Shown here: positions 2,966 through 50,525 of the stretch, one piece after another | Layout: each line of letters begins with the position of its first letter | Numbering within the stretch: the stretch's first letter is position 1 | Assembly: GCA_913064945.1 (NCBI GenBank) | Contig: CAJYAN010000003.1 | Coordinates: 186,001-250,000 of the forward strand | Source of the DNA: an uncultured Gammaproteobacteria bacterium | Lineage (GTDB): Bacteria; Pseudomonadota; Gammaproteobacteria; UBA6429; Thiohalophilaceae | DNA length: 64,000 bases | Reading direction: 5' to 3' | Notes under the pieces: generated by a model | Databases searched by the model: none | What the model was told of the DNA's origin: nothing | The model's input: only the letters and a program-made list of their open reading frames with translations | Translations under genes and position numbers: made by a program

Positions 2966-3739
2966 CTAGGACTGATCCGTTGGCGGCCCGGCCTCGCTTC
3001 GCTGCTGACGACGTTCAGTTCGATGTTGCTTCAAATGCCACAAGGTCAATACCGGCCCGGACAGGGCATAAATCAGGAAACCCCCAAACAGGAGGATCGG
3101 CGGTTCGTAGGAGATCAGCACCAGCACGGCGACGACCAGCAAAATAGTCACAAAGGGAACCTTGCCACGCAGGTCAATGCCCTTGAAGCTGTGATAACGG
3201 ATATTACTCACCATCAGCACGCCCGCCAGCAGGGTCAGCACCAGGGCCACGACATTAATGATGTTATCACTGGGCAGATAGACATCCCCGACCCAGACCA
3301 TACCGGCTACAATCGCCGCCGCCGAGGGGCTCGCCAGTCCCTGAAAGTACTGCTTATCGGATGTGCCAATCTGGGTATTAAACCGCGCCAGACGTAACGC
3401 GGCGGCGGCGGTGTAGGTAAAGGCGGCCAGCCACCCCAGCTTGCCCATGCCGGATAAGGCCCATTCATACATGACCAGGGCCGGGGCCAGGCCAAAGGAC
3501 ACCATGTCAGAGAGGCTGTCATATTCGGCACCAAAGTCACTCTGCGTATTAGTCATACGCGCGACACGGCCATCGATGCCATCAAGGAGCATGGCGACAA
3601 AGATAGCGATTGCCGCCGCTTCAAAGCGACCATTAATGGCCGCTACAATGGCGTAAAAACCGGCAAACAGGGCCGCCGTGGTGAACAGATTGGGTAACAG
3701 GTAAATGCCGCGACGGCGCTTGCCTTCGTCTTTTATCAT
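2966..3739 (-). CDS. pssA: CDP-diacylglycerol-serine O-phosphatidyltransferase
   Basis: Inner-membrane enzyme making phosphatidylserine, the precursor of phosphatidylethanolamine, from CDP-diacylglycerol and serine. The 257-residue multi-spanning protein carries the CDP-alcohol phosphatidyltransferase signature D-G-x2-A-R-x8-G-x3-D-x3-D (from DGIDGRVAR to YDSLSD, about residues 53-76). This is the membrane-embedded type, unlike the soluble phospholipase-D-like enzyme of E. coli. The C-terminal tail is charged and cytoplasmic. It sits between ilvC and leuA, an order shared by several sulfur- and methane-oxidising gammaproteobacteria. A terminator after ilvC separates it from the ilv operon. 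Confidence 0.93.
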   Translation of the reverse strand: MIKDEGKRRRGIYLLPNLFTTAALFAGFYAIVAAINGRFEAAAIAIFVAMLLDGIDGRVARMTNTQSDFGAEYDSLSDMVSFGLAPALVMYEWALSGMGKLGWLAAFTYTAAAALRLARFNTQIGTSDKQYFQGLASPSAAAIVAGMVWVGDVYLPSDNIINVVALVLTLLAGVLMVSNIRYHSFKGIDLRGKVPFVTILLVVAVLVLISYEPPILLFGGFLIYALSGPVLTLWHLKQHRTERRQQRSEAGPPTDQS

Positions 3740-3867
3740 GGAATTATGGCTTCACAATCATTCATTAACGAAAGACAAGCATGCGGTTACTACCGGGGCA
3801 AGTCAAGCGCACGAGGACTTCGCCGTTGTTCAAATGCTGGCCCGGTCCTGACGGGGTAATGCCTGCG

Positions 3868-3900
3868 TAAAAAAACAGGCCGGAAAATTCCGGCCTGTTT
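3868..3900 (-). terminator. Rho-independent terminator after ilvC
   Basis: The arms 3873-3885 and 3888-3900 form a perfect GC-centred stem (AACAGGCCGG paired with CCGGCCTGTT). On the minus strand the stem is followed by seven T residues. It lies 17 bp past the ilvC stop, so it should end the ilvIHC transcript before pssA. Confidence 0.85.
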
Positions 3901-3916
3901 AGTTTAGTGCGATTGC

Positions 3917-5474
<1,558 letters not shown>

Positions 5475-48042: not shown

Positions 48043-49989
48043 TTATTCCTCAGGTAAATGACGTTTCAGGTCGCGCACCATAAATCTTGCCGGGTGTGTG
48101 GCAAGACGAATGTCTTCAGCGACGGGCAAGGGCTCGCCGTTAATCATCGCCGCGATCACTTCCGCCGCCAACGGACAGGAGGTCAGGCCTCGCGAGCCAT
48201 GTCCCGTATTGATATATAAACCCGGCTCGTATTCTGCTAGAGGGTATTTATAAGCCGGTCGACCATGATACAGGTCTGCGTAGTGTTGTTGATAGAATCC
48301 TGTTCGCGGTACCGGGCCAACCAGTGGCAGGTGATCCTGAGTCGAAGCACGAAAGGCGACCCGCCCACCCGTGATCGGGATGCCACTGAACTCTGGTAAT
48401 ACCTGTTGCAAGGCATACAAATTATCCCGATGATCCTTTTCGCGCAAAGTCGTATCACGACTATGGCGATCATAACTGGCACCAAGACAAATGCGGCCAT
48501 CACCTAGCGGGATAACATAACCGTCATAACACACGGGGCACCTAAGCTCGTCCTCACGACGCTGGCTAAAAGTCAATTGACCACGCACCGCCTGCAGGCC
48601 GGAGGCCATTGTCGGTAACAGGCGTGCGGCTTCACTACCATTGGCAATCACCAGCACAGGTGCGGCGGCAACGATCGCCGATGCATTGCGTACTTGCCAT
48701 TCGCCATTGAGATGGTTCATTCCCTGAATGTCGGTTGACGCTAACAGGTGTATTTGTGGTTGCTGTTGTAACAGAGCCTCACATAATTTTTGCGGTTGCA
48801 ACCAGCCTGCTAACGGATAACTTACCCCACCCTGTCTCATCGCGGTGCCACCGGTCATGGCCATGTCCGCAGCATCCAGAGATTGCAGTATCGATTCAGG
48901 CAGGGCAATATTATTCAAGGCCTGTTGTCTTACGGCATCCAGCAACTGAATAACCCCCTCACCGTGCCAGCCGACATCCCCCCTTTGTGTTTGTAATTGT
49001 TGCAGCCAGCGGGTAGTAAACAGAAAGGCCGTCAAATAATAACGTGCCGCCAGGCTCATATCCGCCGTCAGCCTGGGTAGTATCAGGCCGGCGGGATTTC
49101 CGGAGGCACCATTAGCGATCTCAGCATGTTGTTCGATTAAGGTGATGTGCCAGCCGCGTTGTGCCAGCGCGGAAGCAGTAGTGATTCCCGCGATGCCCGC
49201 GCCAATGACGATGGCCTGCCGGTTTTGACTTGCTGCGAATGGCGATTGATGAAACCAGGGCGCAGAAATTTTCTTTTCCTTTGCAGCGTCAAGTCTGCCG
49301 CTAAGCATTTCACGCTTTTTGCCAAAGCCTGGCCGTTTAGTGATCACAAAGCCGGCCGTCTGCAGACGGCGTCTGACGTCACCGGCGGCGGTAAACGTCG
49401 CAAGACTGCCATGTTTTACCGTGCGTTCGGCGATGAACTGAAATAAATTATCCGACCAGAGCCGCTGATTTTTTTCCGGTGAAAAGCCATCCAGAAACCA
49501 GGCATCCACCGTGGCATTGAGTTCAGGCAATAATTCAAGGGCATCACCGAACAACAGAGTCAGGCTAACTCTACGATTCAACAATTGTCGATAATGAAAG
49601 CCGTGTACCAGTGGTGGATAGACTTCGAGTAACTCGCGAGTAATATGTGCCAGGGATGGCCAGGCGCTCAACGCGATTGACAGGTCGTGTGGCGTAAAGG
49701 GATGTTTCTCAACAGCGATATAGTGTAGACGCGCATCGGTGGCTGCCGTCTGTAACCAGGTCTCGACGGTGGCAATAAAATTCAGGCCGCTTCCAAAACC
49801 TATTTCACCGACAACAAATTGTCGGGCACGTGCAAACCGTGTCGGCAAGTCATTACCTTCAATAAAGACATGGCGTGTTTCATCCAGACCACCCTGACGC
49901 GAAAAATAGATATCATCATACTCACTGCTATAGGGCTCGCCAGCATGCCATTGTAGTCTGGCGGCCTGTAATGATTTGAATGAAGACAG
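48043..49989 (-). CDS. mnmC: MnmC, bifunctional tRNA wobble-uridine modification enzyme; non-standard start
   Basis: About 648 residues. The N-terminal domain methylates nm5s2U34 (GEIGFGSGLNF SAM loop); the C-terminal FAD domain (VIGAGIAGITTASALAQRG) removes carboxymethyl from cmnm5s2U34 in tRNA. The coding pattern clearly extends upstream of the only TTG (49848): EYDDIYFSRQGGLDETRHVF and LQAARLQWHAGEPYSS are MnmC sequence. That stretch has no ATG, GTG or TTG in frame back to a TGA near 50036. The best candidates are CTG at 49989 (GAGA 8 bases upstream) or ATT at 49995. The gene starts about 14 bp after the mscS stop. Confidence 0.9.
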   Translation of the reverse strand: MSSFKSLQAARLQWHAGEPYSSEYDDIYFSRQGGLDETRHVFIEGNDLPTRFARARQFVVGEIGFGSGLNFIATVETWLQTAATDARLHYIAVEKHPFTPHDLSIALSAWPSLAHITRELLEVYPPLVHGFHYRQLLNRRVSLTLLFGDALELLPELNATVDAWFLDGFSPEKNQRLWSDNLFQFIAERTVKHGSLATFTAAGDVRRRLQTAGFVITKRPGFGKKREMLSGRLDAAKEKKISAPWFHQSPFAASQNRQAIVIGAGIAGITTASALAQRGWHITLIEQHAEIANGASGNPAGLILPRLTADMSLAARYYLTAFLFTTRWLQQLQTQRGDVGWHGEGVIQLLDAVRQQALNNIALPESILQSLDAADMAMTGGTAMRQGGVSYPLAGWLQPQKLCEALLQQQPQIHLLASTDIQGMNHLNGEWQVRNASAIVAAAPVLVIANGSEAARLLPTMASGLQAVRGQLTFSQRREDELRCPVCYDGYVIPLGDGRICLGASYDRHSRDTTLREKDHRDNLYALQQVLPEFSGIPITGGRVAFRASTQDHLPLVGPVPRTGFYQQHYADLYHGRPAYKYPLAEYEPGLYINTGHGSRGLTSCPLAAEVIAAMINGEPLPVAEDIRLATHPARFMVRDLKRHLPEE

Positions 49990-50003
49990 CGCAATAGTCT
50001 CGA

Positions 50004-50525
50004 TTACGGGGCCGACACGATATGCACAGTAACCGGGTCAGTAAAGAGTTTGGCATTCGGTATGAAAATTTTATCTCCCTCCGAAGTCAATTGAGTATAG
50101 CGCAGGTCAATGGTGAGCACTCTGCCACTAAACCCCGAGACACTAATATCATCTCCAACCACGAAGGGTTTATGCAATAAAATCATAACACCGGAGAGCA
50201 GATTGGAAATTGTATCCTTGAGGGCAAAACCAACGGCAAAACCGGTCAGGCCCAGCCCCGCCACCAGCGCCGAGACATCGACACCGAGCGTGCCCAGCGC
50301 TGTAATACTCGCCACTACCAGCAGCACGATGCGAACACTACGAATAAACAGGTTGGTTAGATGCTCGTCACGCGCCACATGGCGCATTGCTCTGTCCAGC
50401 AGGTGACAGAGCACTTTACTAAGCACGTAGAAGGCAAGCAGGATCAATAATGCGCCGGTAATACGCGGCAACCAGGCGATAGTCGATTTTGCCAGCACTT
50501 CAAGATCGATCAATGAAACTTCCAT
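50004..50525 (-). CDS. Short MscS-family mechanosensitive channel
   Basis: 173 residues, much shorter than E. coli MscS (286). Helices include AWLPRITGALLILLAFYVLS and the pore helix GFAVGFALKDTISNLLSGVM; the beta domain (KPFVVGDDISVSGFSGRV, IFIPNAKLF) follows, but the C-terminal alpha/beta domain is absent. Such truncated MscS proteins exist widely and may still gate. It is upstream of mnmC on the same strand with almost no gap. Confidence 0.83.
   Translation of the reverse strand: MEVSLIDLEVLAKSTIAWLPRITGALLILLAFYVLSKVLCHLLDRAMRHVARDEHLTNLFIRSVRIVLLVVASITALGTLGVDVSALVAGLGLTGFAVGFALKDTISNLLSGVMILLHKPFVVGDDISVSGFSGRVLTIDLRYTQLTSEGDKIFIPNAKLFTDPVTVHIVSAP

Follow-up and report, generated by a model that had tools for sequence, protein, structure and literature searches.

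The window, the whole 64,000-nucleotide stretch of DNA analysed here, carries on its minus strand an mnmC frame encoding a bifunctional MnmC2-MnmC1 tRNA-modifying enzyme, directly downstream of mscS, a gene for a short MscS-type channel (Table 1). The mnmC frame is 664 codons long from stop to stop, preceded by a TGA at 50040-50038 and closed by its own stop at 48045-48043. Its earliest ATG, GTG or TTG is the TTG at 49848, codon 64 of the frame, and conserved MnmC sequence starts about 47 codons ahead of that point. Upstream of this TTG the frame holds the near-cognate codons GTA (50007), ATC (50004), ATT (49995) and CTG (49989). The mscS and mnmC frames overlap at 50037-50004, and the ATC uses the last A of the mscS stop TAA at 50006-50004 (TAATC, a 1-nt overlap).

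The initial annotation had claimed that mnmC has no ATG, GTG or TTG for the full-length protein, which reading of the frame and the starts of relatives confirmed. The four near-cognate codons that it listed are all present in frame, with the CTG 14 nt past the mscS stop as it had said, and its estimate that a start at TTG 49848 would cost about 47 conserved residues was upheld by invariant residues and by modelled strands and a helix. The TGA that it placed near 50036 exists, at 50040-50038. The absence of a canonical start is a real feature of the sequence, and mnmC has the makings of a non-canonical-start gene, namely a full conserved protein in a frame lacking ATG, GTG and TTG ahead of it.

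Table 1. Features at the mscS-mnmC junction, with positions in the window.
Feature	Coordinates	Strand	Basis
mscS, short MscS-type channel gene, 173 aa, directly upstream of mnmC	50004..50525	-	Pfam MS_channel domains
mnmC frame, bifunctional MnmC2-MnmC1	48043..50037	-	NF002480, 691 bits against a cut-off of 540; E. coli MnmC 3awi
Candidate start ATC	50002..50004	-	sequence; AUC-class mnmC N-terminus in genus g253
Weak SD-like GAG	49999..50001	-	predicted anti-SD pairing of -3.0 kcal/mol
Candidate start ATT, 8 nt past mscS stop	49993..49995	-	sequence
Candidate start CTG, 14 nt past mscS stop	49987..49989	-	sequence; GAG 9 nt upstream
Conserved N-terminal MnmC2 segment, lost with a TTG 49848 start	49849..49986	-	alignment and structure model
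First canonical start TTG	49846..49848	-	GAAGG 7 nt upstream; duplex energy -3.9 kcal/mol

Identity and integrity of MnmC

The mnmC product scores 691.2 bits against NF002480, the equivalog for bifunctional MnmC (cut-off 540), 238.7 bits against NF033855 (cut-off 136) and 387.8 bits against TIGR03197 (cut-off 174.2). Both the MnmC2 and the MnmC1 domain thus exceed their curated cut-offs, as expected of a bifunctional MnmC, and the E. coli MnmC structure 3awi matches the full frame (E 2.2e-114). No other lesion was found across the 664 codons and, its start aside, the gene reads as intact. Because mnmE and mnmG were found in the same genome, the pathway exists there. Elsewhere in the family of the window genome, locus L008 (G012:C89) encodes MnmC2 alone, a protein of about 240 aa with no MnmC1 oxidase.

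Residues of the MnmC2 segment are numbered here from CTG 49989. Across 44 aligned MnmC2 domains P19, D26 and Y28 are invariant and G34, E37, V41, F42 and N46 near-invariant, and all eight precede residue 48, where a protein initiated at TTG 49848 would begin. The modelled MnmC2 methyltransferase domain (mean pLDDT 93.5; ten-residue means 94-98 over residues 11-50) matches E. coli YfcK/MnmC structures with a query TM of 0.87-0.89. In the model the segment that precedes the TTG contains two strands (12-15 and 18-21) and a helix (34-46). Additionally, a codon-usage score gives 17 nats of coding signal over the 58 codons ahead of TTG 49848.

Start codons of mnmC in relatives

In a first, alignment-based set of 88 loci, 87 had a canonical start and the window alone had none; the 87 relatives start with ATG (62), GTG (13) or TTG (12), upstream of the conserved motif and near it. 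A second count of 65 loci found no canonical start in three (L001, L196 and L231). The largest set began with 281 loci, of which 277 gave an N-terminal match and 265 had distinct N-termini. A start was counted as canonical when ATG, GTG or TTG occurred within the 45 codons preceding the conserved D-x-Y motif, a lenient rule in that internal GTG or TTG codons score as starts. Six of the 265 had none, and two of these were set aside, L231 as degenerate and L250 as cut by a contig end. A canonical start is therefore present in 259 of the 263 countable distinct N-termini, and the four exceptions are the window, L196, L233 and L234. The mnmC-like sequence at L231 (G371:C144) has a degenerate, poorly conserved N-terminal region, with a stop 11 codons before the motif position.

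A second lineage without a canonical start

The three other exceptions belong to one genus, g253 of family f135, with loci L196 (the same place as L232), L233 and L234 and genomes G347, G410 and G409, in assemblies that are 60-90% complete. All three readable g253 N-termini lack ATG, GTG and TTG ahead of the conserved block and have an ATC at the N-terminus; the sole qualification concerns G347, where a TTG lies six codons before the motif, within the conserved block. A fourth genome, G408, is cut such that the mnmC N-terminus is missing. The frame opens TAA-TCC-ATC-GAA in G410 and TAA-CTC-ATC-GAG in G409, with one codon between the in-frame TAA and the ATC, while G347 reads ATC-ATC-GAA, its first ATC 7 nt past the TGA of the upstream ORF. 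A G-rich, SD-like sequence lies 8-9 nt upstream of the ATC in two of the genomes. SD energies at the ATC are -8.0 (G410), -5.5 (G409) and -3.2 kcal/mol (G347), and those at subsequent ATT codons range from -2.4 to +0.1 kcal/mol. Since the automatic alignment sets the next ATT of G410 opposite the ATC of the other genomes, "AUC-class" is a safer label than "AUC".

The MnmC proteins of G409 and G410 are 77% identical to each other and 53-54% identical to that of G347. For full-length mnmC of the closest pair, G409 and G410, dN is 0.14 and dS 0.93, a pattern of purifying selection that argues against both sequencing error and pseudogene status in g253. From these sequences AUC-class initiation of mnmC in g253 looks real, and by analogy it is plausible in the window. 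A quick tree built from 132 proteins separates the window and g253 into different subgroups, with support of 91 for the former's and of 86 and 95 for the latter's, a placement suggestive of two origins of start-less mnmC. The second lineage therefore serves as an analogy and not as demonstrated common ancestry.

Candidate starts and probable coupling to mscS

The initial annotation proposed non-canonical initiation at CTG or ATT. Non-canonical initiation is the best reading, reinforced by g253, but CTG and ATT are not clearly to be preferred, as ATC 50004 is, by analogy and position, at least as good a candidate. Predicted anti-SD pairing is -1.7 kcal/mol for ATC and -3.0 kcal/mol for both ATT and CTG, compared with a median of -2.2 kcal/mol at random internal sites. 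Only CTG could make use of the GAG, which is 9 nt away from it but 3 nt from ATT. A weak SD is usual for mnmC: in 68 of 87 relatives the pairing is no stronger than -3.0 kcal/mol, with a median of -0.9. A scan for promoters and terminators gave hits at chance level only.

Relative to the mscS stop the candidates stand at -1 (ATC), +8 (ATT) and +14 (CTG), all within the approximately 20 nt that characterizes coupled pairs. Coupling is described as nearly vanishing by about 20 nt, with -1 nt overlaps among the commonest arrangements, and re-initiation as requiring very short distances (PMC10666635). With no SD, re-initiation at the mscS stop would be the natural route, and the steep decay with distance, together with how common -1 nt overlaps are, favours ATC over ATT and CTG. 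The mscS-mnmC junction shares the one-base overlap of such coupled pairs and differs in having TAATC instead of TAATG. We therefore regard ATC 50004 as the leading candidate, plausible by analogy and position, with CTG 49989 next; given a non-canonical start, our judgement divides as ATC about 45%, CTG 30%, ATT 20% and any other codon 5%.

We put at roughly 60% the probability that mnmC is functional, with translation of the full-length protein initiated at a non-canonical codon, weakly, by ribosomes finishing mscS. Ribosomes that end translation of mscS would re-initiate at ATC 50004, or alternatively at CTG 49989 or ATT 49995. Initiation would be weak and probably coupled to mscS; we infer the codon used, the coupling and the low output. 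With output from a CUG start reported at 0.86% of that from AUG (PMC11497404) as a yardstick, low mnmC output is expected.

The upstream partner belongs to a conserved group. The window gene and loci L113-L123 encode a short MscS-like protein of about 170-190 aa that is widespread in the family; its chain stops after the beta domain, and the usual C-terminal domain is missing. These short orthologs stop at about the same place as the window mscS, and ending at about the same residue they rule out a truncated mscS or a deletion fusing mscS and mnmC.

Alternative explanations

It is rather unlikely that mnmC is a nascent pseudogene, one that lost its start codon to a recent substitution and whose frame is still to decay. 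Every candidate start has a weak SD, the start region at L231 is degenerate, and loss of the gene seems tolerated, since a match (E <= 1e-30) was found in five of the 40 genomes of family f1 searched, some of them incomplete, and was absent from 35. The evidence also comes from a single genome, and the 40 included no second genome of the window's genus. Against decay stand 664 codons without a further lesion, an equivalog-level score, and the retention in g253 of an mnmC that also lacks a canonical start and has low full-length dN relative to dS.

It is distinctly unlikely that sequencing or assembly introduced an error into the start codon, even with ATC 50004 one base away from an ordinary stop-start overlap. 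The assembly is in 22 contigs, no 16S rRNA was found in it, and a search of viral contigs for an independent copy gave 0 matches. Sequencing errors are rare per codon, and the frame is otherwise without defect. The same phenomenon occurs in three g253 genomes from distinct assemblies, and its recurrence in an unrelated genus makes a mere sequencing slip unlikely. Start loss and sequence error both retain some weight because the window's genus is represented by one genome.

Initiation at TTG 49848, giving an N-truncated MnmC, is very improbable. It would use one of the usual start codons, with GAAGG 7 nt upstream giving the pairing listed in Table 1, but that GAAGG also codes for a conserved Glu-Gly. 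The resulting protein would lose invariant P19, D26 and Y28, two strands and helix 34-46, and the 17 nats of coding signal would be left upstream. Least credible of all is a -1 slip at the end of mscS (CCG TAA re-read as CCC GTA) yielding a single MscS-MnmC protein, for although the last mscS codon could re-pair on CCC one base back and the two frames overlap, there is no recognised slippery heptamer, the close short-MscS orthologs each have a stop at a similar position, and among 111 loci searched just one other than the window gave any MscS-like match (L084, 28% identity). A frame-restoring TTG at 49994 in the mscS frame was likewise rejected, as using it would require ribosomes to slip by -1 in the space of a few codons, where no slippery site was seen.

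Comparison with infC

The candidate ATC and ATT starts of mnmC are of the same AUH class as that of infC, whose AUU or AUC start belongs to the autocontrol of IF3; an ATC start has been reported for infC of Streptomyces (PMC5472188). In the genome studied here infC itself (L143, G000:C2:186837-187343, start at about 1492) has an apparent ATC start with a GGAGG (-9.3 kcal/mol) located eight bases before it, and its first ATG, eight codons downstream, lacks an SD (-0.9 kcal/mol). AUC starts thus seem to be used in this genome, though in combination with a strong SD, which is missing from mnmC. The combination of strong SD and near-cognate codon typical of IF3-repressed genes was not found at mnmC, where pairing energies run from -1.7 to -3.0 kcal/mol and that of infC is -9.3, and no feedback logic is known for mnmC. 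This counts partly against a simple throttle like that of infC, to which the initial annotation had likened the start, and the ordinariness of weak SDs in mnmC weakens that reading further.

An excess of IF3 is reported to inhibit both non-canonical starts and re-initiation without an SD (PMC2268962). Because IF3 disfavours both, mnmC would be expected to be sensitive to IF3, and throttling by it may follow. On a wider and more speculative view, about which we are doubtful, an AUC-class mnmC start arose at least twice in Gammaproteobacteria and was kept by selection, placing the final steps of wobble-uridine modification under the control of initiation fidelity, through IF3, and of upstream translation. 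If so, the modification state of tRNA would serve as a readout of how the initiation machinery stands.

Relation to known non-canonical starts

To our knowledge, very few bacterial genes with non-canonical starts have been characterised. An ancestral AUG is reported to have switched rarely to CUG or AUU, at 2 and 1 of 61,358 (PMC5622118). Like the putative mnmC start, the GTC start of Streptomyces sigR is non-canonical, and it is described as conserved throughout the genus and output-limiting; the codon differs, sigR has an extensive RBS AGGAGGTG, and its repression by IF3 was demonstrated by experiment (PMC5472188). In Borrelia burgdorferi pncA/BBE22, which has an AUU start, canonical annotation cuts off a structurally required N-terminus, as it would in mnmC, although that start is experimentally confirmed and belongs to another enzyme in another phylum (PMC13398362). 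A further paper on non-canonical re-initiation (PMC4648390) concerns eukaryotic translation and was dropped as a precedent. A literature search pairing mnmC with start-codon terms returned no paper containing mnmC among the matches listed and, on this limited evidence, a non-canonical mnmC start appears to be previously undescribed.

A conserved mnmC case would add an ordinary enzyme to the short list of non-canonical-start genes and would point to a connection, open to testing, between the fidelity of initiation and decoding. Genes with non-canonical starts are truncated or missed by gene callers, and the present case is a concrete annotation warning for mnmC in the lineages of the window and g253.

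Survey of the genome for similar genes

We surveyed 464 kb (the window plus 400 kb) of the 3.2 Mb genome, comprising 404 gene-like ORFs. Ranked by how much coding signal precedes the first canonical start, mnmC was second of the 404 and the strongest among the scanned top ORFs with any family match. Of the eleven top-ranked ORFs, the Pfam scan covered ranks 1, 3-8 and 11; seven of these eight other ORFs had no match, and the eighth was KARI with 5.5 nats upstream. The rank-1 ORF was rejected as a start-less gene, having no family match and an antisense-like position beside a secretion-transporter gene, and it looks like a spurious shadow ORF. At L151 a long plus-strand ORF (1778-2665) with coding-like composition and no family match adjoins a transporter-type gene on the minus strand (3274-5016), and is probably a shadow ORF.
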